IMG/VR virus record: IMGVR_UViG_3300045049_000074
Coordinates: 1-25,675 of that record
DNA: 25,675 nt
Source: a virus
Strand: one strand, 5' to 3'
The notes beneath the pieces are model-generated. The model saw only the letters and a list, made by a program, of their open reading frames with translations, did not search any database and was not told the origin of the DNA. This document shows positions 6,010 to 19,306 of this stretch, piece by piece. Every line of letters starts with the position of its first letter. The stretch's first letter is position 1. A program made the position numbers and the translations under genes.

Positions 6010-7071
6010 TCAGCCGCGCCTGCGGCGGCGGGAATGGGTGACGCGGCGCGCGTGGTGCCGCTTGGAGTGCAGTGACTTGGCGGAGCCGTGGCCGCCGCCC
6101 AGCCGGTGCGGACGGTGCCGGTGGGTGCCCAGCGACCTGCCGTGGTGCGCCTCGTGGTGGCTCTGGCGCCGCGTGTGCAGGTGCCGCAGCCGGTGGTGGT
6201 GGTGCGCCAGCGCCTTGGCCGCCTTGTGCCGCTGGTGGACGTGCGCGGCGTGGTGCACGCGGGCGTGGATCTTGCGTGCCACCTTGCGGTGCGGGTGCAC
6301 CGCCTGGTGCTGGTGGTGGTGCGCCGACAGCGCCTTGTGGATGGCGTGCCGGGCGTGCGACGACAGGTGCCGGGCCAGGTGGTGCGCGGAGGCGCGGCGC
6401 GCGTGCGGCGTCAGGTGCGTGCGGTGGTGGTGGCCGCGCAGCGCGGCGCTGATGCGGTGCCGGGTGGTCGCGGACAGCTTGTGGCCACGGTGGTGGTGCG
6501 CCCCGGAGTGATGGAAGTGGCGCCCGCGCAGTTTCGCGCTGATCTTCGCTCGGGTCGCCGCCGACAGGTGGTGCCCGTGGCGGCTGTGGGCGACGTGGTG
6601 TCTCCCCTTGAGCTTGGCGCTGATCTTGGCGCGGGTCGCGGCCGACATGGGGTGGCCACGATGGTGGTGGTGCCTGCCGCGCAGCCGGGCGCTGATCTTC
6701 GCGCGGGTGGCGGCCGACAGCCGGTGCCCGCGATGCCGGTGGTGGTGGCCTCTGAGCTTCGCGCTGATCTTGGCGCGGGCCGCCGCGCTCAGGTGGTGGT
6801 GCCTGCCGCGCAGCTTCGCCGAGATCCGGGCGCGCGTCGCGGGCGACAGATGGTGGTGGCGCCCCTTCATCTTCGCGCTGATCTTGGCTCGCGCCGCCGC
6901 GCTCAGGTGGTGGTGTCTCCCCTTGAGCTTGGCGCTGATCTTCCGCTTGGTGGCGGCCGACAGGTGGTGGCCCTTGCGGGACGGCCAGCCAGGCTTGCGC
7001 TTCCCGCCTGGGTTCGCCGGGGAGGGAGTGTAGGGGCTGGGCGAGCCGGGCGGGTTCGCCGGGGAGGACAT
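6010..7071 (-). CDS. Arg/His-rich protein of tandem NUMOD3-like motifs
   Basis: 353 aa, extremely basic. After a Pro/Ser N-terminal leader (MSSPANPPGSPSPYTPSPAN) come eight clear copies of a ~20-30 residue unit with core LSAATRAKISAKLKGRHH. This matches the NUMOD3 DNA-binding motif found in GIY-YIG and HNH homing endonucleases. Spacers are His/Arg-rich and vary in length. After about residue 215 the motif decays into a long His/Arg/Ala region ending RRRRRG. No GIY-YIG, HNH or other nuclease domain is present. The start is set at ATG 7071 because it forms a TGATG junction with the upstream stop and has GAGGTG before it; an earlier in-frame codon at 7092 lies inside the upstream gene. Likely a nucleic-acid-binding protein; its role in the tail region is unknown. 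Confidence 0.8.
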   Translation of the reverse strand: MSSPANPPGSPSPYTPSPANPGGKRKPGWPSRKGHHLSAATKRKISAKLKGRHHHLSAAARAKISAKMKGRHHHLSPATRARISAKLRGRHHHLSAAARAKISAKLRGHHHRHRGHRLSAATRAKISARLRGRHHHHRGHPMSAATRAKISAKLKGRHHVAHSRHGHHLSAATRAKISAKLRGRHFHHSGAHHHRGHKLSATTRHRISAALRGHHHRTHLTPHARRASAHHLARHLSSHARHAIHKALSAHHHQHQAVHPHRKVARKIHARVHHAAHVHQRHKAAKALAHHHHRLRHLHTRRQSHHEAHHGRSLGTHRHRPHRLGGGHGSAKSLHSKRHHARRVTHSRRRRRG

Positions 7072-7618: not shown

Positions 7619-8515
7619 TTACCGCAGCGTGCGTTCCTGCACGAAGTCGGAGAGCAGGTCGAAGCCTTCGGCCATGTTCGCCGACCCGTCGTCAGGCTCG
7701 GCGCCCCGCTTGGCCGGGCCGGAGACCTGGTCGGCCGCGCGCCTCTTGAGCATGCCGGTGATGATCTCCACGGCGGCCGAGTAGATGTCCTCGTGCAGCG
7801 CGTCGCACTGGTCGCCCTGCTGGTGGTTGTACTGCAAGGTGGCGGCGGTGACGGAGGTCGAGGTGACGGCGGTGGGGATGAACGACTCGTCCTGGCCGAA
7901 CGGGGAGCGGATCGTCAGGGTGGTGGCGCCCGCGTAGATGCCGGTGGTGTCGCCCACCGGGATGACGACGTTGTTCCCGGCGGCGACGTTCGCGGTCAGC
8001 GAGGTCAGCGGCCAGCCGTTGACGTAGCTGTACTGCGTCCAGTACCTGCCGTCCGGGCCGCTGATCCGGCCGAACTGGAGCGGCCCCTGCGAGGACTGGC
8101 CGGTGAACGGGTAGGCGAGCACCTTGATCTCGTGCTGCTTGACCTTCACCTGCGAGAAGTCGGTCTGGGTGGACATGTAGGACGGGTCGGAGCCGTACGA
8201 CAGGGCGGTGAGCGCGAGCACGGGGGTGAACGACGGGGTGAGCGTGAGCTGCCCGTAGTGGTCCATCCGTACGTCGTACGCCTCCGTATCGACGGTGGCG
8301 TGCAGCACCCCGCCGGAGGCGCCGTAGCAGAAGCTGTTCATCTCGGCGCTGGCGCGCTGGATGATCCGCCGCAGTTCGTTCTCCTGCGCCAGCGGGGAGC
8401 CGCCGGAGACCAGGTTGTCCACCGGGGTCCCCATCGGTTCCTGCTTGTATAGGCCGGGCGTGATGAAGGGGCGCGTCGGATGGATCGTGGTGACGCCGAC
8501 AGCCGGGGTCGTCAT
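7619..8515 (-). CDS. Probable head-tail connector (adaptor) protein
   Basis: 298 aa. The N-terminal helix (PLAQENELRRIIQRASAEMNSFC) and the C-terminal helices (DALHEDIYSAAVEIITGMLKRRAADQ; MAEGFDLLSDFVQERTLR) resemble gp6/gp15-like adaptors that sit under the portal. Between them is a long beta-rich insertion (roughly residues 65-230) that is larger than in the minimal family. Its position after the head genes and before the tail completion gene agrees. ATG 8515 overlaps the upstream stop as ATGA. An in-frame upstream extension is not needed. Confidence 0.55.
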   Translation of the reverse strand: MTTPAVGVTTIHPTRPFITPGLYKQEPMGTPVDNLVSGGSPLAQENELRRIIQRASAEMNSFCYGASGGVLHATVDTEAYDVRMDHYGQLTLTPSFTPVLALTALSYGSDPSYMSTQTDFSQVKVKQHEIKVLAYPFTGQSSQGPLQFGRISGPDGRYWTQYSYVNGWPLTSLTANVAAGNNVVIPVGDTTGIYAGATTLTIRSPFGQDESFIPTAVTSTSVTAATLQYNHQQGDQCDALHEDIYSAAVEIITGMLKRRAADQVSGPAKRGAEPDDGSANMAEGFDLLSDFVQERTLR

Positions 8516-8826
8516 GTGATCTCCAGGAGGTCAACGCAGCGGACGATGGTCTCCGAGGAGTCCACGATCTTGACCCAGACGTAGTATTGGCCCACCGTCA
8601 GCGCTCCGAAGGCGGACGCCGGGCCGATCTGGAAGGAGACGTAGTTGGCACCCGCCACGGAGGTGAACCAGGTGGCGGCGTGCCAGTCGGACGGGCCGGG
8701 GTTGGCCGTGGACGACATGATCGCCACGAACGCCGAGTCGCCGGTCGGGTTGCCGATCCCGGTGGTGGCCTGCTGGCTCACCGGGTACAGCAGCAGCGGC
8801 GAGGACAGCGAGGACTCGTAGCGCAT
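8512..8826 (-). CDS. Small beta-rich structural protein
   Basis: 104 aa: MRYESSLSSPLLLYPVSQQATTG, then ATWFTSVAGANYVSFQIGPASAFGALTVGQYYVWVKIVDSSETIVRCVDLLEI in short strands. The ending looks like one Ig-like beta sandwich, a fold phages use for surface decoration or fibre contacts. ATG 8826 has GGAGG at ideal spacing. It is the last member of the accessory block before the connector and overlaps that gene by 4 nt. No family recognised. Confidence 0.65.
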   Translation of the reverse strand: MRYESSLSSPLLLYPVSQQATTGIGNPTGDSAFVAIMSSTANPGPSDWHAATWFTSVAGANYVSFQIGPASAFGALTVGQYYVWVKIVDSSETIVRCVDLLEIT

Positions 8827-8837
8827 CGGACCTCCGA

Positions 8838-10697
8838 TCAGGGCCTGGGCCCGAAGATGAAGCGGGACACGGCCCCGCCGATCCGGCCGGACGGCATGGG
8901 CCCGATGCCGCCGATCGCCCGCAGCAGCCGGACGACCGAGGCGGAGCCGCCGATCGTCACCACCGCCAGCACCGTGCGCTCCACGGTGCGGCCAAGGCTG
9001 CCCGCCGCGCCCACCGTGGCGCTCAGGGCGCGGGAGAGTAGGCGCCCGAAGGGCGCGCCCACCTGGACCCGCGCGGCCAGCGTGCGCGCCAGCGAGCGGC
9101 CCAGCGAGCCTGCGGCGGCCACGGTGGCGGACAGTGCGCGGGACAGGCTGCGGCCCACGGAGCCGCCTGCGGTCACGACCGCGACGAACGCCTTGGTGTA
9201 GAAGTGGGTCACGATCGCCGTGGAGGCGGCGGCCACCCGCGCCGCGAACGCCCTGGAGAGCGCCCGCTGGGTGGCTGCGGACGCCTGGAGGGTTGCCAGC
9301 AGCGTGCGGCCGACCGCCCCGGAGCGAGCGGAGGCAGCCGCGACGGCGGCGGACAGCGCGCGGGACGCCTGACGTACCAAAGACGCCCCGGCGCCCACCT
9401 GGCTGAGCAGGATTCGGGTCAGGGCGCGGCCCGCAGAGGCCCCTGAGACGACCCGAGCGGCCCAGGTGCGGGTGAGTCCCCGGCCGTGGGTCGCGGAGGC
9501 CGCCACGGTGGCGCTGAGGGCCCTCGCGAGGCCCCTGGAGAGGGTCGCCGAGGCGGAGACGGGGGCGATGAGCGTCTTCTGGGCCCGGTTCGCGGAGGAA
9601 GCGGCCGCCTGGACGCTGGCCAGAAGGCTGCGGGTGGCCGAACGGGCGTACGAGGACCCGGCGGAGACCTGGGCGGACAGCGTGCGGGACGCCGCGCGGA
9701 CCACCGAGGCTCTGGCGGAGACCGAAGCCAGGATCACCTTGGTGTAGAAGTGCTGCACCTGGGCGAAGGCGGCTGCCGCGACGCTGGCCAGCAGCTTGCG
9801 TGCCACCTGGCGCGCCACCAGGCCGCCCGCAGTGACTTGCGCTGCCAGCGGGCGGCCCAGCGAGCGCCCTATCGCCGCCGCAGTGGCCACCTGCACGACG
9901 ATCGTGCGGGTCAAGCCCCGGACAACCCCGCCCACCGTGTTGACAGTGGCGAGGACCGTGTGGCCCAGCGCCCGCACCGGACTTGCCGCCACGGAGACGG
10001 CAGCGGTCAGGATCTTGGAGACCTGCCCCGAACGCGCCGTGCTCGCGGTGACCTGGGTCAGAAGCGTCCGGGACAGGCCGCGCAGCACACTACCAGACGC
10101 GGACACCTGCGCGAGGAAGACGCGGGGCGGCAGCACGCGGGTGAACAGCCCACCGGCCGTCACCCGCGCCAGGATCGGCCTCTGCACCGTTCTGGTGATT
10201 GCAGAGGCCGCGCTTACTGCGGCCAGTACCGCGCGTCCCAGGCTGCGGGTGACGGCCCCGCCAGCGCTCACGCTGGCCGCCCTCGCCGCCTGCACCTGCC
10301 TGACGACGCTGCCAGCGGCAGCCACGGAAGCCAGGAAGGTACGGGAGTAGAGCTTGACGACCGCCGCCGAGGCGGCCGCTGACACGCTGGCCGCCTTGGC
10401 CACCGCCAGGGCGCGCACGACGAGCGCGACGGCTGCCACGGACGCCAGCTTGACCACCGCCAGCGTCCGGCCCACCGCTCCACCGGCCGCCACGGAGGCG
10501 AGCAGCGGGCGGTTCAGGACCCGTACGACCGCCCCTGCGGCGGTCACGAGCGCCGCCTGGGCCTTCTGACCCTGGCGGACGAACGCGCCGCCCGAGGTGA
10601 CGCTGGCGGCGATGGTCTGCTGCCGCTGCGTGCGGATGACCCGGAAGTAGTCGCCCTCGCGCGGCTTGATGATGAACGCCGGGGGGCGGCGGGCCAT
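8838..10697 (-). CDS. Giant 18-residue-repeat protein, probable virion accessory
   Basis: 619 aa. After a short leader (MARRPPAFIIKPREGDYFRVIRT) almost the whole chain is about 31 imperfect copies of an 18-residue unit. The approximate consensus is L-A-x-V-x-A-x-G/A-S-x-x-R-x-x-x-R-x-L, for example LASVAAAGSVVRQVQAAR and SATVAAAGSLGRSLARTL. Three copies are 20 residues long with an aromatic insert (KLYSRTF, HFYTKVI, HFYTKAF). The chain ends in a Gly/Arg tail. Composition is mostly Ala, Ser, Val, Arg, Gly and Leu. Units differ enough in DNA that this is an old, selected repeat, not a recent tandem duplication. ATG 10697 follows the upstream stop directly, with GGAGGAG. No known family is recognised. 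Location suggests a head or tail appendage or a membrane-active component. Confidence 0.8.
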   Translation of the reverse strand: MARRPPAFIIKPREGDYFRVIRTQRQQTIAASVTSGGAFVRQGQKAQAALVTAAGAVVRVLNRPLLASVAAGGAVGRTLAVVKLASVAAVALVVRALAVAKAASVSAAASAAVVKLYSRTFLASVAAAGSVVRQVQAARAASVSAGGAVTRSLGRAVLAAVSAASAITRTVQRPILARVTAGGLFTRVLPPRVFLAQVSASGSVLRGLSRTLLTQVTASTARSGQVSKILTAAVSVAASPVRALGHTVLATVNTVGGVVRGLTRTIVVQVATAAAIGRSLGRPLAAQVTAGGLVARQVARKLLASVAAAAFAQVQHFYTKVILASVSARASVVRAASRTLSAQVSAGSSYARSATRSLLASVQAAASSANRAQKTLIAPVSASATLSRGLARALSATVAASATHGRGLTRTWAARVVSGASAGRALTRILLSQVGAGASLVRQASRALSAAVAAASARSGAVGRTLLATLQASAATQRALSRAFAARVAAASTAIVTHFYTKAFVAVVTAGGSVGRSLSRALSATVAAAGSLGRSLARTLAARVQVGAPFGRLLSRALSATVGAAGSLGRTVERTVLAVVTIGGSASVVRLLRAIGGIGPMPSGRIGGAVSRFIFGPRP

Positions 10698-11165
10698 CTA
10701 CTCCTCCCACTCCACCGCGATCAGGTAGGCCATGCCGGTGGGGAGCGCGTTGGTGCGGTTGATGAAGCAGAGCCCGTTGGCGGTGCCCAAGGAGCAGACG
10801 AACTCCTCCATGTAGTCCCACGGGAGGTCGACCCCCGACTGGGAGTTGAAGGAGAACTGGAAGTCGTCGTTGGTGGACAGCGTCGGCGGCGTGGCGTACG
10901 CCGAGTTCCACACCGCCCCGGCCGCCGCCGAGTTGGGGTCGAGCTTGGCCGGTGTCATGCCAGCCGTGGGCGTGGTCCCGGCGGTGGTCACCCGGTTGAT
11001 GCCGACAATGAGCTGCTGCGAGGTCGGCGCCGAGGTACCGGCCGTGGTGCCGATGGTGACCCGCCGCAGCTTGTAGCCGTTGTTCGCGGACGCCATCAGC
11101 CAGCCGAAGCCGGTGTTCGCGGCCAGGGCGGTGGCCGAGGTGAGCTGCACGTGGTAGCGCGCCAT
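10698..11165 (-). CDS. Virion-associated protein, beta-rich, unknown
   Basis: 155 aa: MARYHVQLTSATALAANTGFGWLMASANNGYKLRRVTIGT, then a body of short strands and Ser/Thr/Gly loops ending MAYLIAVEWEE. It has no signal peptide and no membrane segment. The pattern fits a small capsid or tail decoration protein of about one beta-barrel domain. ATG 11165 has AAGGAG five bases upstream. It is placed directly before the 18-residue-repeat gene with no gap, so the two products may work together. Function is not assignable from sequence alone. Confidence 0.65.
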   Translation of the reverse strand: MARYHVQLTSATALAANTGFGWLMASANNGYKLRRVTIGTTAGTSAPTSQQLIVGINRVTTAGTTPTAGMTPAKLDPNSAAAGAVWNSAYATPPTLSTNDDFQFSFNSQSGVDLPWDYMEEFVCSLGTANGLCFINRTNALPTGMAYLIAVEWEE

Positions 11166-11174
11166 CGAGACTCC

Positions 11175-11864
11175 TTACCAGCGACCCTGGTACTGGGAGA
11201 TGAAGGGGGGGACGAGGCTGGTCCCGGTGGGTGCCGCCTCGATCGCGTACGAGGCGATGTTCCAGTACGCGGTCGAGAGGGACGAAGTGAACGTGGCTCC
11301 CGACTGGGAGCCGGTGGCGTAGGAGTTGCCCTGGAACTTGGGGCCGCCCGACTCGTTGGTGTTGTCGATCGTCGTCCAGGGCGAGCCGGGCATCGTCACC
11401 GTGAAGCTGGTGGAACCGGCGTCGTCGCCCATCTGCCCGCAGACCACGGTCAGGTCGGTGGACTGCACGCCGGTCAGCGCCGTCGAGGTGAACGAGGCGC
11501 CCGTGGCACCCTTATGGTCGATGCGCGAAGTCCTGATCGGCGTGGAGGTGTTGGCGCCGGAGAAGTTGAGCAGAGTGGCGACGCCGTCGGCGGCCGAGGT
11601 GGTCCAGGAGATGGTGTAGCTCGCTGGCTCCGAGCCGCCCGCGATCTTGTAGAAGGTGGCACCCGCGCTGTCGTTGGAGTCGGTCCAGGACGAGATCATC
11701 GTCGTCCAGCCCGACATGGTGAACGCGGACGAGGCGGAGCTGGTGTTGACCGAGCACACCAGCAGCGAGCCGGACACCACACTGGACGGCTTGTTGATCG
11801 AGATCGAGGTGACGCTGTTGAAGCCGGAGTTCAGGAACGTCCCGGACACGTACGCGACCGCCAT
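11175..11864 (-). CDS. Beta-sandwich structural protein (fibre/adhesin-like)
   Basis: 229 aa, rich in Ser, Thr, Gly and Ala with very few charges. It shows a repeating strand pattern: SGSLLVCSVNTSSASSAFTMSGWTTM, then ATFYKIAGGSEPASYTISWTT, then VATLLNFSGANTSTP, and later LTVVCGQMGDDAGSTSFTVT. The pair of phrases about a value with 'GW-T' and 'Y-K-AG-SEPASYTISW' recurs in beta-sandwich proteins of actinobacterial phages and resembles lectin-like folds. A tail-fibre, head-fibre or receptor-binding role is possible. ATG 11864 has GGAGG four bases upstream. It is the first gene after the hairpin terminator following the GH16 gene. Confidence 0.65.
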   Translation of the reverse strand: MAVAYVSGTFLNSGFNSVTSISINKPSSVVSGSLLVCSVNTSSASSAFTMSGWTTMISSWTDSNDSAGATFYKIAGGSEPASYTISWTTSAADGVATLLNFSGANTSTPIRTSRIDHKGATGASFTSTALTGVQSTDLTVVCGQMGDDAGSTSFTVTMPGSPWTTIDNTNESGGPKFQGNSYATGSQSGATFTSSLSTAYWNIASYAIEAAPTGTSLVPPFISQYQGRW

Positions 11865-11916: not shown

Positions 11917-12978
11917 TCACTTCCAGACGCGCACCCAGTCAACCTTCATCGTCACCGGCCCGGACGGCACGTGCGAGTCCTGGCCCATGGTGAAGTCGAG
12001 CACCAGGTACTCGGGGTAGGCGGGCGGGAACTGCGCCGACCACACCAGCCTGCCGTCCCAGTAGAACTGCGTGAACTGCGTCGCCGCGTCCCACTTCACG
12101 CCGTAGGTGTGCCAGCCCGTCATGCCCGTCGGGGCGGTCCAGCCACGGTCGTTGTTGTTGTCGTAGTGGACGTGCGCCGCCGTCTCCGGGGAGCCGGACA
12201 GCCCCTCCACCACGTCAATCTCGCCATGCTGCGGCCACGGCACGTTGTCCGGCCCGTTCAGCCACCAGGCGGGCCACGCCACCGCGTTGCCGTGCCCGTC
12301 GTCCGGCAGGAACACCCGCGCCTCGAAGGAGCCGCCGGTCTGCGCGAACTTGCCGATGCTGTCCACGGCCGCGCCCGTGTACGGCTTGCCGCAGGTGTTG
12401 TCGTGGGTCAGCAGCAGGTTGAGCGTGCCGCCGGACACGGTGACGTGGCTGTGCCCGTAGCAGGCCAGCTCGTCGCTGTTGATCGGCTGCGTGCCGCCGA
12501 ACCAGCCGTTCTCCCACTTGCTGGTGTCCAGCGAGGTGCCGCTGAACTCGTCATCGAACGTCAGCTTCGCGGTGCCGCTCGGGGCCCAGCTCGGCTGCAA
12601 GCCGCCGGAGGGCGGTGTGGTGGTCGCAGACGGGGTCGGCGTCGAGGAGCTGGAGGAAGCGCTCGGCTTCGGCGTAGGAGAGGCCGTAGGCGGCGCCGAC
12701 GAGCCTGCGGTCGGCGTTGCGGAGGGCGTCCGAGACGGTGACACCGTCGGGTGCGGCTTCGGGTGGCACCTGTGCCTCTTCTTCGGCTTCGGCTTCGGAT
12801 GGTGGGCGACGGCCAGCAGCGTGGGCGCGGCCGTGGGTGTCGGAGTCGGCGTTACCGCCGGGGACTGGGAGGCGGTCGCCACCGAGTAGGCGCCGCCCCC
12901 AGCCGCCAGGCAGCTCGCCGCGACCAGGGCGACGACCGCGTTGCGACGCCGCCGGTCGGGGGATCTGCGATGCTTCAT
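11917..12978 (-). CDS. Glycoside hydrolase family 16 beta-glucanase-like enzyme with N-terminal export signal
   Basis: 353 aa. Residues 1-37 look like a Sec signal or signal anchor: basic MKHRRSPDRRRR, then hydrophobic NAVVALVAASCLAAGGGA. Residues 40-125 are a Pro/Thr/Ser/Lys-rich low-complexity linker. Residues ~135-353 form a GH16 domain, with FDDEFSGTSLDTSKWENGW at its start, the active site HGEIDVVEG at 251-259 (E253 nucleophile, D255, E258 acid/base), and a terminal VDWVRVWK strand. GH16 enzymes cleave beta-1,3/1,4-glucans, agar-like or related glycans; the substrate cannot be read here. The gene lies inside the phage structural operon, with only a weak ribosome site before ATG 12978. 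Likely a depolymerase made during infection or attached to virions. The family call is strong, the role is inferred. Confidence 0.9.
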   Translation of the reverse strand: MKHRRSPDRRRRNAVVALVAASCLAAGGGAYSVATASQSPAVTPTPTPTAAPTLLAVAHHPKPKPKKRHRCHPKPHPTVSPSRTPSATPTAGSSAPPTASPTPKPSASSSSSTPTPSATTTPPSGGLQPSWAPSGTAKLTFDDEFSGTSLDTSKWENGWFGGTQPINSDELACYGHSHVTVSGGTLNLLLTHDNTCGKPYTGAAVDSIGKFAQTGGSFEARVFLPDDGHGNAVAWPAWWLNGPDNVPWPQHGEIDVVEGLSGSPETAAHVHYDNNNDRGWTAPTGMTGWHTYGVKWDAATQFTQFYWDGRLVWSAQFPPAYPEYLVLDFTMGQDSHVPSGPVTMKVDWVRVWK

Positions 12979-14429: not shown

Positions 14430-16136
14430 TCAGGTCGCGGAGACCGTCACGCCGGTGAAGATGCCGTTCCACGCCGGGGCGTAGTGGATCATCGTGCCGA
14501 ACTCGTACGTGGACGAGTCGCGGGTGAGCTGGATGTGCGGCCAGTCGATGACCAGCAGCCCCTGCACCATCCGCAGCTCGGCCGTGTGCGTCACGCCGTT
14601 CGCCGGGAAGGGGAGGTGCGGGCTGCGGAGCAGCACGACGCCCTTCGGCATGAACGGGTGCACCCGGAACCGCACCATCTCGTCGTTCGGGGACGAGAGG
14701 TTCTGGATGCCGGTCACGGCGGTGCCGATGACACCGTCGGTCTGGGACATCTGGATGCGGTAGGCGAGGCTGTTGCCCGACTTCTGGAGCGCGGTGCCCA
14801 GGCCGACCTTGACCGTGACGTCCATCCAGATTTCGGACGGCGTGGCGAAGTTGTTCAGCCACATCGACTGGAAGGCGGTCTGGAGTTCGTTGCCGGGGTT
14901 GGACGAGCCGGTCCAGGTGGTGCCGGTGGTGTTGACGTACCCGCCGTTGGCCAGGGTGTTCGGGATGAGCCCGTCGAAGCCGTTGGCGTCGAAGGAGCCG
15001 TCCGAGGACGGGGCGGCGGCGCCCGTGGTGCTGTACGTCGTCAGGGTGTAGCCGGTGGTGCTGGACGTCGAGGACGGCAGCACCTGCTGCTGGAAGGTCT
15101 CGCCGCCGGAGGCGGTGCCCACGTAGATGTTGTAGGCGACCGCGCCGGTGACGGCCGGGAACTTCACCGTGATGGTGTTGGTCGAGCCGGTCAGCGCGCC
15201 GGTGTTCACCTCGGTGGACGGGGCGGACTCGCCGAACCCGGCCACGGCGGTCACCTTGATGTAGTAGGTGGCCGCCCCGATGCTGCCTCCGCTGGAGGAG
15301 CTGGACGGGGTGACGGTGCCCATGGCGCCGACGGAGCCGAGGTAGCCGTTGCCGGTGCCGCCGCGCGCGTACAGGACCGCCCGCTCCTTGGAGAGCAGGT
15401 GGGTCCAGCTCAGCGCGTGGCGGGAGAGCTGGAGGATGTTGGCGAAGCCCTGGCCAGCGTACTGCGCGACGTCGGCCACCAGGTCCGACCGGCCCCATTC
15501 CACGTAGGACGCGGTGTGGTCGCTGGTCGAGTAGGTGATCTTCGCCGGGCGGCGCAGGCTCAGCGAACCGAAGTTGTTCGTGGTGCTCTGCGAGGAGAAG
15601 AACGGGCTGTTGGGCGCCAGGTAGTTGCTGTTGCCCGAGTTGAACGCACCCTCCAGCGCGTCCAACTGCTTCCAGTGGGTCGCCAGACCCTCGCCCTGGT
15701 CAACCGACGGAAGGTCGTTGAGCAGGGGGGTGTGCAGCGGCACCAGCTCCTTGAGCGGAGTCTGGAGGTCGTAGGGCACCGGCTGGGCGGACGGGTTCGG
15801 CGACACGGAGCCGATGCCGACCTGCCAGTCCTTGGCCACGTCCACGAGCTGCTTGAGGACGGCCGCGTCCTCCTCGGAGCCCTTGGTGACGACGGTGGAC
15901 AGCCGCTCCATCATGGCGTCCACGTCGGCCTTGGCCGGACCCGCCTTAGCCATCCGCACGGCGCTCTTGTGGCCCTCGACGCCCTTGAGCACATACTGGC
16001 CCGACTGCGCCTTGTCGATGGACGCCTGGAGGGCGTCCTTGTAGTTCTCGAACTTCTCGGCAGCGGCGGCCTTGTTGAACCGCTCACCCTCTTCGAGGTC
16101 GCCGCCGAACAGCTCCTTGAGCATGTCCTTGGACAT
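14430..16136 (-). CDS. Major capsid protein with Ig/FN3-like insertion
   Basis: 568 aa from ATG 16136 (MSKDMLKELFGG), preceded by AGGAG seven bases upstream; an in-frame codon at 16193 lacks support and overlaps the upstream gene. Residues 1-110 are mainly helical and may be a scaffolding-like delta domain. Residues ~120-270 and ~380-568 have capsid character (SYVEWGRSDLVADVAQYAGQGFANILQLSRHALSWTHLLSKERAVLY; ELQTAFQSMWLNNFATPSEIWMDVTVKVGL). Residues ~274-379 are a Ser/Thr-rich insertion resembling a fibronectin III/Ig-like domain (ATYYIKVTAVAGFGESAPSTEV; VTGAVAYNIYVGTASGGETF). HK97-fold assignment follows from context and the neighbouring protease and scaffold genes. Size and insertion are larger than the minimal ~300-400 aa capsid protein. 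Confidence 0.85.
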   Translation of the reverse strand: MSKDMLKELFGGDLEEGERFNKAAAAEKFENYKDALQASIDKAQSGQYVLKGVEGHKSAVRMAKAGPAKADVDAMMERLSTVVTKGSEEDAAVLKQLVDVAKDWQVGIGSVSPNPSAQPVPYDLQTPLKELVPLHTPLLNDLPSVDQGEGLATHWKQLDALEGAFNSGNSNYLAPNSPFFSSQSTTNNFGSLSLRRPAKITYSTSDHTASYVEWGRSDLVADVAQYAGQGFANILQLSRHALSWTHLLSKERAVLYARGGTGNGYLGSVGAMGTVTPSSSSSGGSIGAATYYIKVTAVAGFGESAPSTEVNTGALTGSTNTITVKFPAVTGAVAYNIYVGTASGGETFQQQVLPSSTSSTTGYTLTTYSTTGAAAPSSDGSFDANGFDGLIPNTLANGGYVNTTGTTWTGSSNPGNELQTAFQSMWLNNFATPSEIWMDVTVKVGLGTALQKSGNSLAYRIQMSQTDGVIGTAVTGIQNLSSPNDEMVRFRVHPFMPKGVVLLRSPHLPFPANGVTHTAELRMVQGLLVIDWPHIQLTRDSSTYEFGTMIHYAPAWNGIFTGVTVSAT

Positions 16137-16159
16137 GAGGTTTCTCCTGACGGGGGTCG

Positions 16160-17068
16160 TTACGACTCGCCCCGGTCGTTCTCGCGCAGCCATGCGCGGT
16201 AGTAGCTCCGCAGGTCGGAGGAGATGTTGGGGTCCTCCGCCATCTTGCGGAAGCGGGCCGCCTTCACGGCGCGGTCGTCCTTCGGGGCGCCGGGCTGCGG
16301 GTTCGCGCCCAGCATCACAGGTCCACCAGGGACCGGGGTCGCCTTGACCTTCGCCAGCTCGGCTTCCAGCGCCTCGATGCGCTCTCCGTCGGCCTTCCTG
16401 ACCTCTGCCACGGCGTCGGAGACCATCTTCTGGATGGCCTCGGTGTCGATCGCCGACTTGTGCATGCCGCCCATGTCGGCGCTGCCGTCGCCCTGCCCCC
16501 AGGACTTCGGCAGCATGTTCTTGAGCCCGAGGCGCTTGGCCTGGGCCACGATGTGGTCGTGGATCTCGGCGTGCGAGTGGCGCGAGCCGCGCCCGATGGC
16601 GTGGATCGCGTTGTGCAGGTCGCCCGCGTTCTCGATCGGGTAGGAGCCGTCCGGCAGCGCGTGGCCAGCCTGGGCCGCCCTGCGCCGCTCCTCGGCGGTG
16701 AACGTCCGCTTGGTGATGAGCGCGGCGATCTCCGGCTCCGGGACGACGGTCCCCTCGGCGCGGTACTCGAAGACGTCGGCCGCGCCCTTGACCAGGTCGG
16801 AGATGAAGGAGCGCAGCTCGTCGTCCTCGGCGCCCTTCTTGGCGTCGGCGCCGCGCGCGTCCTCGTCGTCCTCCTCGTCCTTCTCCTGGTCCTCCTGCTC
16901 CTCCTCGACGGCCGCCTTGAGCAGCGCCTCGACGTCCTCCTTGGAGAACATCCCGCCGTCGGCGGACTTCATGAGGATGAAGCCGGTGCCGTTCGCCGCC
17001 TCGGCGACGGCGTCCACGCGCTCCACGATGAGGTCGGTCAGCTCAGTGAACTCGGTCTGCTCGCCCAT
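16160..17068 (-). CDS. Probable scaffolding/capsid assembly protein
   Basis: 302 aa. An acidic stretch lies at residues 54-70 (EEEQEDQEKDEEDDED). It is followed by FTAEERRRAAQAGHALPDGSYPIENAGDLHNAIHAIGRG at ~122-161, the LPDGSYPI..DL.NAI motif of a small domain (DUF6582-like) common in actinophage head-assembly proteins and some host proteins. A coiled coil lies at 207-243 (AIQKMVSDAVAEVRKADGERIEALEAELAKVKA), then a basic C-terminal helix. Acidic, helical, and placed between protease and capsid genes, it fits a scaffold. ATG 17068 has AAGGAG at ideal spacing. Confidence 0.65.
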   Translation of the reverse strand: MGEQTEFTELTDLIVERVDAVAEAANGTGFILMKSADGGMFSKEDVEALLKAAVEEEQEDQEKDEEDDEDARGADAKKGAEDDELRSFISDLVKGAADVFEYRAEGTVVPEPEIAALITKRTFTAEERRRAAQAGHALPDGSYPIENAGDLHNAIHAIGRGSRHSHAEIHDHIVAQAKRLGLKNMLPKSWGQGDGSADMGGMHKSAIDTEAIQKMVSDAVAEVRKADGERIEALEAELAKVKATPVPGGPVMLGANPQPGAPKDDRAVKAARFRKMAEDPNISSDLRSYYRAWLRENDRGES

Positions 17069-17440: not shown

Positions 17441-19306
17441 TCAACTCCAATCGCAGCGCGGGTCGTCGGCCAGCTCGGGAGCGTCGGCCGGTGTCAGGTG
17501 CTCGAAGTGGAAGCGCCTGGAGGGATTCGGGTGCTTGGCCGCCCACTTGGCAAAGGCGACCGCTTCGGCCGCCTTCTGGGTGGTGCTACTAGATTGGGAG
17601 GAAGTAGTAGTTGGCTGGGACTTGGGCTTGGTCCCAGCACCCCCAGGCTTCGCGCCGCCGCCGTTGGGCGCCCCGGTCTGCATCGGCTGGCCGGGCTGTT
17701 GCGGCTGGTACTCGGCCGGTTCGACCATGACGCCGCTGGGCGCCAGCTTGGAGGAGCCGTTGAGGAACACCACGCCGCGCGTGGTCTCCAGCATCGCCAT
17801 GTCGGCCTCGGGGAACTGGTACAGCGGCAGGTTGTTGCGCGCCCTGTCCTCGTTCAGCGTGGCGCGGCCGGACCGCACCCGGTTCTCCCACACCTGGTCC
17901 TGCGCCGCCTCGTCCTGGGAGTCCAGGCCGAGGAACTTGTGCACGACCTCGGGGCGGATGTTGAGCTGCTCGTGGCTGATGCGGGACACCTGCTGGGAGA
18001 ACCACTCGGTGTCCGGCCGGGTGGCCTGGCGCTCGTAGTTGTCGGCGCTCGCCTCGTGCCAGCCGGAGTCGCCCAGCCCCTTGGCCTCGGTGAAGCCGAG
18101 CTTGCCGATGGGGATATCGAAGTGCATGGCCAGCAGCTTGATCAGGAACAGGTCGTAGTCGGGCTTGTACCGCTCGTCCACGTTGCCCGTCTCGACCGCC
18201 TTCTGGCCGGGCGCCAGGACCGTCAGGCGCTGGCGGGCGACGGTGTCACCGGCCAGTTCCGCGTTCAGCGCATCCTGCCACATGCGGCGCTGCTGGGCCG
18301 TCATCTCGCCGTAGTCACCCTGGGTGAGCTGCGACTCGATCCACGCCCTGGGGATGACTCCGTCGTCGTACTCGGCGAGCATCCACCCCTGGCGCTTGAG
18401 GTAGAGCTTGGCGGAGATCAGCGCCTGCTCGACCGGCGACATGCCGAACGGCGACTGGACCTTGTCGCCGCCGCGCGTGAAGTAGTACATCTCACCGGCG
18501 CGGTAGGCGTTGGGGATCGCTGGCTTGCCGTCGATGTCGATCGTGGTGGCCAGGTACTCGCCGCGCGGGAAGCCGTACAGGATCTGCTGGAAGGCCGGGT
18601 AAGGGGCCTGCGGCTTGCCGCCCCTTACGTCGCGCAGCGGCTTGATGGTGGCGCCGTCGATCAGGTCGAGGGAGTACAGCTCGCCGCCGTAGGTGCGCTG
18701 CGGGTACACCACCCAGGCGTCGATGACCAGGTACTGCTCCAGCGCCTGGTAGCACCAGTCCTCCCAGATGAAGTCCTGGTTCTTGCCGGGGAAGCGCCAG
18801 AAGGCGTTCGCCTTCTCGATGTCGGCCGCGTACTCCTTGGCGAGCTGCGCCTCGATGTCCTGCTTCGGCTTGTTGGAGCGGGCCGCCTCGCGGTTGACCG
18901 CCCAGGGGGCGACGGTGAAGGTCCAGTCGCGGGCGGCGATCTCCTTCTTGCGCAGCTCGATGCAGCGCCGCACCAGGTCGATCTTGGTGGACGCCTCGCG
19001 CAGGTCGTGGAAGGCGATCCTGGGCGAGACCGTCGGGTCGATGTTCCAGGTGACCGGGTACTCGGTGTACCGGGGGTCCACCACGCCGTCCGGGCGCGGC
19101 TGGTCCAGCCCGACGGGCGTGAACGGCACGTTCGGGCCGAACAGGTTCATCCACGACGGGTCGCGCGGCAGCATCCTGCCCGGCTCGTAGCCGGAGCCGT
19201 CGGACGCGGTCAGCATGTTGACGACCATGTCCATCGGGAGCTGCTGGACCTTGGCCGGGGACAGGGACTGGGCGGGGGCACGCCGGAAGGGGTTACGCAG
19301 TGCCAC
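17441..19306 (-). CDS. Portal protein
   Basis: 621 aa. It forms the dodecameric channel at the capsid vertex through which DNA is packaged. Portal-like features include ASTKIDLVRRCIELRKKEIAARDW near residues 104-129, FIWEDWCYQALEQYLVIDAWVVYPQR, the GMSPVEQALISAKLYLKRQGWMLAEYDDGVIPRAWIES region, and the long helix region with AMHFDIPIGKLGFTEAKG. The C-terminus carries a Gly/Pro/Gln/Ser/Thr linker (~540-580) and a short extension AVAFAKWAAKHPNPSRRFHFEHLTPADAPEL that recurs at the ends of actinophage portals. The start is GTG 19306 with AGGAGGAGG upstream, and it overlaps the terminase stop by 14 nt. Confidence 0.92.
   Translation of the reverse strand: MALRNPFRRAPAQSLSPAKVQQLPMDMVVNMLTASDGSGYEPGRMLPRDPSWMNLFGPNVPFTPVGLDQPRPDGVVDPRYTEYPVTWNIDPTVSPRIAFHDLREASTKIDLVRRCIELRKKEIAARDWTFTVAPWAVNREAARSNKPKQDIEAQLAKEYAADIEKANAFWRFPGKNQDFIWEDWCYQALEQYLVIDAWVVYPQRTYGGELYSLDLIDGATIKPLRDVRGGKPQAPYPAFQQILYGFPRGEYLATTIDIDGKPAIPNAYRAGEMYYFTRGGDKVQSPFGMSPVEQALISAKLYLKRQGWMLAEYDDGVIPRAWIESQLTQGDYGEMTAQQRRMWQDALNAELAGDTVARQRLTVLAPGQKAVETGNVDERYKPDYDLFLIKLLAMHFDIPIGKLGFTEAKGLGDSGWHEASADNYERQATRPDTEWFSQQVSRISHEQLNIRPEVVHKFLGLDSQDEAAQDQVWENRVRSGRATLNEDRARNNLPLYQFPEADMAMLETTRGVVFLNGSSKLAPSGVMVEPAEYQPQQPGQPMQTGAPNGGGAKPGGAGTKPKSQPTTTSSQSSSTTQKAAEAVAFAKWAAKHPNPSRRFHFEHLTPADAPELADDPRCDWS

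Follow-up and report, generated by a model that had tools for sequence, protein, structure and literature searches.

Background

In the fibre shaft of adenovirus, a triple beta-spiral, residues 61-392 comprise 22 repeats of about 15 residues each (PMC8869412), and crAss-like phages carry tandem repeats of the BACON domain (PMC6949934). Right-handed parallel beta-helices or solenoids are exemplified by tailspikes, TPS domains and Ag43, and the subunit CsgA of curli, a secreted bacterial and non-viral fibre, consists of strand-arch-strand repeats stacked as a beta-solenoid. The left-handed beta-helices of LpxA and GlmU have 18 residues per turn, and a BACON domain measures about 90 residues. Here we analyse a 25,675-base stretch of DNA with 69% G+C (the window), which is one complete IMG/VR record (IMGVR_UViG_3300045049_000074) from a tailed, uncultured phage and encodes a protein built largely of short tandem units. 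Like the BACON proteins of crAss-like phages it carries tandem repeats within a phage protein, but its unit is of 18 residues rather than a whole domain, and a Pfam scan of the window gave no BACON match. Pieces of the 18-residue repeat are already present, nameless and labelled 'unknown function', in phage family collections as PHROG 18536 and PHROG 26712. These match the repeat arrays of relatives (E 2e-9 to 2e-7 for the former and down to 8e-11 for the latter), but they are short profiles of 83-141 positions that carry no functional description and miss the window protein. A search of open-access papers found no published description of the family, nor of a defined function for any member.

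The repeat gene and its genomic setting

The recognised genes of the window all lie on the minus strand. Their order runs from a peptidase/transglycosylase with LysM through terminase, portal, head maturation protease and capsid into a block of unusual genes, after which follow the head-tail adaptor, a gene with NUMOD3 motifs, the tail tube and the tape measure. The repeat gene lies in the block bounded by capsid and adaptor (Table 1). The host is perhaps an actinobacterium, to judge from the likeness of the terminase to that of Arthrobacter phage Sonali (E 2e-136). The adaptor also matches the 'head-tail adaptor' of MMB025 (phmmer E 7e-12). Among cultured phages with related portal or capsid proteins, namely Thermoanaerobacterium THSA-485A, Alicyclobacillus MMB025, Brevundimonas Polewnik and Arthrobacter Sonali, the annotation includes no comparable gene, and the capsid gene almost adjoins the adaptor. 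The two small genes that flank the repeat gene in the window have no family match in Pfam or PHROGs; the product of the Ser/Thr-rich one resembles, as judged by eye only, proteins that adjoin the repeat gene in one related locus (L034).

Two further genes of the window deserve mention in their own right. Within the block of the repeat gene, between the capsid and adaptor genes, lies a GH16-family (laminarinase-like) protein (11917-12978, minus strand; Pfam E 4e-8), a polysaccharide hydrolase. Between the neck and tail-tube genes, a 353-residue, His-rich and extremely basic protein (6010-7071, minus strand; 82 K/R, 1 D/E) contains about ten NUMOD3-type repeats of ~19 residues (HHLSAATRAKISAKLKGRHHH; Pfam NUMOD3 E 5e-14). 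The NUMOD3 motif normally binds DNA in homing endonucleases; no nuclease domain was found in this protein.

Table 1. Coordinates of the repeat protein, its internal features and neighbouring genes in the window
Feature	Position	Strand	Basis
18-residue repeat protein, 619 aa, ATG start	8838..10697	-	ORF, unit parse, profile and pairwise homology
Array of 31 repeat units	8910..10610	-	Spacings 18 (25x), 20 (4x), 19 (1x)
Aromatic stretch LYSRTF, unit 5, first 20-residue step	10335..10352	-	Unit parse
Aromatic stretch HFYTK, unit 16, second 20-residue step	9738..9752	-	Unit parse
Aromatic stretch HFYTK, unit 26, third 20-residue step	9192..9206	-	Unit parse
Head-tail adaptor	7619..8515	-	phmmer E 6e-12 to Sonali 'head-to-tail adaptor'
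Small Ig-like-looking gene	8512..8826	-	ORF; directly downstream of repeat gene, before head-tail adaptor
Small Ser/Thr-rich gene	10698..11165	-	Directly upstream of repeat gene
Separate gene for beta-rich domain D	11175..11864	-	Domain-D profile 26.2 bits, full length
Divergent N1 homologue (PHROG 5417) with inserted segment	12991..13647	-	N1 profile 28.3 bits
Major capsid protein	14430..16193	-	phrog_13692 E 5e-60; homologous to annotated major head proteins
Portal protein	17441..19306	-	phrog_2662, portal family present at other repeat loci too

The open reading frame of the repeat protein has a GC3 of 0.90, like the other genes of the phage, whereas an overlapping frame on the opposite strand lacks the codon-position G+C pattern of phage genes. 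An earlier note on this DNA, made from the letters without database searches, had described about 31 tandem 18-residue repeats, and a dynamic-programming parse confirms this count, with 25 of the 30 spacings at exactly 18 residues. The period stands about 15 standard deviations above shuffles (lag-18 identity 30%, z about 15 against 300 shuffles; lag-36 identity 28%, z 12). The units occupy residues 30-596, preceded by an N-terminal segment of residues 1-29 and followed by a short C-terminal tail. Their consensus is L-A-[ST]-V-[AST]-A-[AG]-[GA]-[SA]-V-[VG]-R-x-L-[SG]-R-[TA]-L, and the paired Arg residues noted before at positions 12 and 16 are borne out, in 25 of 31 units at the former and in 20 of 31, plus three with Lys, at the latter. 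The three aromatic inserts also stand, but the distances between them are 11 and 10 units rather than the 9 and 11 given earlier. Each accompanies a unit that is longer by exactly two residues, and the fourth 20-residue step falls at a degenerate C-terminal unit.

A virus-borne family of 18- or 20-residue repeats

Direct searches with the window protein gave no match in Pfam, PHROGs, NCBIfam, PDB sequences, tblastn of phages or pattern scans of viral contigs, in part because of low-complexity masking of the Ala-rich query, and designed consensus queries likewise found no relatives. The family was reached through a DNA pattern for a similar motif, AGTLTP[AST]G, which returned 59 loci when scanned over viral contigs. 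A six-frame periodicity scan detected a strong 18-residue period in about 15 of these 59, a 56-residue super-period (18+18+20) being frequent among them, and an alignment built from the periodic loci led to 39 loci. A profile made from relatives only gives the window protein 57.5 bits (E 2.9e-17), as against 25.2 bits for the best of 200 phase-permuted controls, in which composition and the 18-residue period are kept and positions within the unit are permuted; shuffled copies of the protein were not reported at all. Its best pairwise relative is L069 (phmmer E 3.7e-25). By sequence homology, membership of the window protein in the 18/20-residue viral family is established, and no named family for this repeat was matched in Pfam, NCBIfam or PDB.

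Two candidates were rejected as members: Phage C48C1, whose repeat has a period of 12 residues, and a Clostridiales locus (L107) whose membrane protein matches the motif only once. The C48C1 protein is a chain of 3,348 residues (L066:8813-18856) with the 12-residue repeat TYDGTYSRTRxS, encoded near tail-fibre genes.

The family unit follows the pattern K-x-L-x-G-x-L-x-P-x-G-x-L-x-K-x-x-x, with 2.3 Gly per unit and Pro in 69% of the units of relatives. Most units of the window protein instead have Ala at positions 5 and 9 and Gly or Ala at 11, in contrast to the canonical G5, P9 and G11; the protein is an Ala-rich subtype of the 18/20 family, not of its PAG subtype. Across 85 distinct family proteins, 1,200 of 1,242 spacings (96.6%) are of 18 or 20 residues, 931 being of 18 and 269 of 20, as compared to 21 of 19, 8 of 21 and 13 longer ones, spacings from 15 to 24 residues being counted. 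Homologues with random unit lengths, which the earlier note had named as grounds against its prediction of a rod or fibre, did not occur among these relatives, and a rod or fibre is the best-supported reading of the fixed-length repeat. The proteins contain 5-43 units (median 14), some of them being truncated at contig ends. Across the family, aromatics (0.72 versus 0.29 per link) and hydrophobic residues (43% versus 31%) are more frequent in the 20-residue than in the 18-residue links. The aromatic inserts of the window protein, which the earlier note had seen as perhaps dividing the rod into segments, are therefore its version of a family-wide feature. The long unit recurs at every third step in some relatives and after 10-11 units in the window.

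Such regularity bears on whether the array is merely a low-complexity, disordered Ala-rich linker, its repeat devoid of structural meaning. Ala makes up 23% of the residues of the window protein, and AF2 confidence in its fold is only moderate, both of which would suit a linker. However, disordered repeats would be expected to drift in length, the Gly, Pro, Leu and Lys positions are conserved across divergent viruses, and the array is tightly linked to the partner gene N1 described below; we regard a linker as very unlikely.

Several relatives show additional repeat architectures. A repeat protein of ~2,000 residues (L087 and L011) combines several 18/20 arrays with Gly-rich and lectin-like domains, and the C-terminal tails of many relatives (among them L078, L083, L073, L076 and L100) bear a second repeat of ~10 residues (e.g. 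...ALSDSAVNLATLSDSAVYAASL...) after the 18/20 array.

Structure of the repeat unit

The earlier note had offered two models, an alpha-helix of five turns per unit with the Arg residues along one face, and a three-sided beta-helix. The former, whether as a single very long helix or as a coiled coil, draws on the Ala/Arg/Leu-rich composition of the window copy and on the equivalence of 18 residues to five helical turns. It is contradicted by the relatives, given the Gly and Pro content of their units and the negative autocorrelation at lags 3, 7 and 11 (z -26, -17 and -22 in the pooled family). Further, a two-residue insert would break the phase by rotating the helix through 200 degrees, and helix is absent from both repeat arrays modelled with AF2, so that we consider a helical rod extremely improbable. 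In the pooled family all odd lags from 3 to 23 are strongly negative (-17 to -26) and the even lags are not; when the 18 columns were randomly reordered 20,000 times, an alternation as strong arose in only 5 cases. This rhythm, together with the conservation of Gly and Pro and the change of step by two residues, leads us to prefer beta structure over helix. In the window protein alone the alternation is weak, being reached by 45 of 1,000 permutations, and for this Ala-rich copy the case for beta structure consequently rests on homology. A left-handed beta-helix, with its hexad [LIV]-[GAED]-x2-[STAV]-x, would bring a strong 6-residue periodicity; the relatives show a positive lag 6 (z 25), the window protein shows none (z -0.3), and there is no Pfam match.

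Structure prediction, which had been proposed as a check, returned all-beta, solenoid-like models at moderate confidence (pLDDT 68-69). For 240 residues of the window protein aligned with 38 further rows, AF2 gave a pLDDT of 67.6 and a pTM of 0.57, the five models of the segment disagreeing among themselves (pLDDT 38-68). For a relative (L062; pLDDT 69.3) the model is all-beta across the repeats, each unit having about 13 strand residues and a five-residue TPAGA turn. Both models resemble right-handed parallel beta-helices or solenoids: VIA re-alignment of the Foldseek hits led to parallel beta-helix proteins, several right-handed ones at Z 14-17 and an rmsd of about 3 A. They differ in that Foldseek found nothing at E <= 0.001 for either model and Pfam found no match. 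Left-handed beta-helix hits align poorly (rmsd 11-12 A), even though LpxA and GlmU share with the repeat family a step of 18 residues. VIA ranks CsgA first for the relative's model (Z 15.3), but with an rmsd of 9.8 A, which is not a real fit, and no Pfam curlin match was found. The first VIA row for the window model, 6x62_AX of the Legionella T4SS (26% identity), was not taken as kin; the match presumably reflects a chain built as poly-alanine set against an Ala-rich query.

AF2 is known to over-predict beta-solenoids for repeats with false confidence (PMC11795689). Because of this bias, beta structure is likely for the repeat array on the joint evidence of sequence and models, but 'solenoid' is less firm: a single-chain solenoid, close to the three-sided beta-helix proposed earlier, is favoured by the models but not proven. 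The principal structural alternative is an intertwined trimeric beta-fibre with a strand-turn-strand in each unit, as in the adenovirus triple beta-spiral, in place of a single-chain solenoid. The unit is nearly symmetric about its Pro-Ala-Gly turn (K1-L3-G5-L7-P9-G11-L13-K15), lengthening by exactly two residues fits a hairpin extended by one residue per arm, and phage appendage fibres are usually trimers. The adenovirus shaft is likewise viral, with short tandem beta repeats, Gly/Pro turns, alternating hydrophobics, a variable number of repeats and a rod shape, which for the present repeats is a prediction. Against this, its repeat measures about 15 residues (PMC8869412) rather than 18 or 20, no sequence match connects the two, and the AF2 models are solenoid-like, albeit as predictions for a monomer. 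Mutual information between unit positions gave no separation of antiparallel hairpin from parallel solenoid. The readings differ in the rod length that they predict: 31 units of 0.48 nm would make a monomeric solenoid about 15 nm long, a trimeric fibre would reach about 34 nm if scaled simply from the ~20 nm rods of a 22-repeat adenovirus shaft (PMC8869412), and 619 residues as one helix would span about 93 nm. We regard the trimeric fibre as a substantial minority possibility.

Partner genes, domain fusions and distribution

Of 40 distinct repeat loci, 37 have close to the repeat gene a second gene of unknown function, which we term N1 (PHROG match 5417); since 21 of these loci served to train the N1 profile, the count is descriptive. 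The reverse direction makes for a cleaner test: N1 alone retrieved 80 loci, of which 62 contain the repeat. Judged by contig name, 18 of these 80 belonged to the repeat set beforehand; among the remaining 62 loci, the repeat occurs in 45. The repeat-negative loci are mostly short contigs, in which its absence could reflect a truncated view. The divergent N1 homologue of the window scores far above its controls (best of 500 shuffles 3.3 bits; best of 331 unrelated phage ORFs 6.1), and the same holds for its domain-D gene (best of 500 shuffles 4.1 bits). Domain D, a separate gene in the window, is fused N-terminally to the repeats in at least seven relatives, and in L050 a LamG domain is fused at the same position. 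Within 10 kb of the repeat gene, the large neighbours in 14 loci mostly gave matches to head and packaging families, namely minor head, head morphogenesis, protease, portal and terminase. The family thus sits in head and packaging modules beside a conserved partner.

This location, together with charge, could point inwards. The window array has 65 K+R versus 1 D+E and the family averages 2.15 basic versus 0.48 acidic residues per unit, as might suit an internal head protein whose basic repeat rod binds the packaged genome. This is the main functional alternative to a rod on the virion surface. Yet the LamG and domain-D fusions, and the GH16 neighbour in the window, are typical of external parts, and beta-structured DNA-condensing rods of such a kind are, to our knowledge, without precedent; we hold an internal role to be unlikely.

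In 85,000 bacterial and archaeal genomes only one true case was recovered, on a 3.3 kb contig of a Saccharibacteria MAG (L106) that has N1 adjoining and is probably viral; as the scan patterns were strict, rarity in cellular genomes is indicated rather than proven. Among 50,697 phage records the repeat was found only in MW202615, itself an environmental assembly, and the search of these records recovered no named isolate carrying the gene pair. In MW202615 the repeat lies on the strand opposite the annotated genes, and the N1 homologue is annotated as 'tail collar fiber protein'. The repeat frame in that record (L065:4710-7709 in MW202615.1, plus strand) is open for 1000 residues and encodes about 30 repeat units along with domain D and an Ig-like domain; over most of it GenBank lists only opposite-strand ORFs (e.g. 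UOF79353.1), and the gene appears to have been missed in annotation. The family is widespread in uncultured viral contigs, essentially virus-only and apparently undescribed.

Functional implications

We consider it rather probable that these proteins, as an undescribed and essentially virus-only family, are beta-structured basic rods carried on the virion, in the head or neck region, in association with N1 and domain D. Each unit would be a short beta stretch that alternates in/out, turns tightly at Pro/Ala-Gly and has a basic residue at either end, and such units could stack into a straight, stiff, basic rod. If one unit is one structural step, its length of 18 residues would be locked, and a change by two residues only would keep the in/out alternation of side chains, the longer units bringing additional hydrophobic or aromatic residues. 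The rod may project from the virion head or neck together with N1, a candidate anchor or cap, and with the beta-sandwich domain D, a candidate tip or base; the length of the array, at 5-43 units, would then set its reach. Contact of the assembly with the cell surface is suggested by its lectin-like and glycosidase neighbours; there it could help to hold the virion, its basic faces putatively binding acidic envelope polymers. The place of the rod on the virion, its oligomeric state and its ligand are to be read in the same conditional sense. More tentatively, and with a confidence that falls somewhat short of even, one may envisage a two-component appendage widespread among uncultured phages, in which N1 is the anchor and the repeats form a new 18/20-step beta-repeat fold, so that the head and not the tail bears a long basic host-contact fibre of variable length.

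Any proposed fold must account for the 18-or-20 rule, which constrains structure sharply and brings the fold within reach of a test on one short recombinant construct. The gene pair is common to about a hundred uncultured viral contigs, yet it is nameless in Pfam, NCBIfam and PDB. If the rod indeed stands on virion heads, protein engineering would gain a new beta repeat that is stiff and stackable, and the rod would represent a common, overlooked route by which environmental phages reach their hosts.
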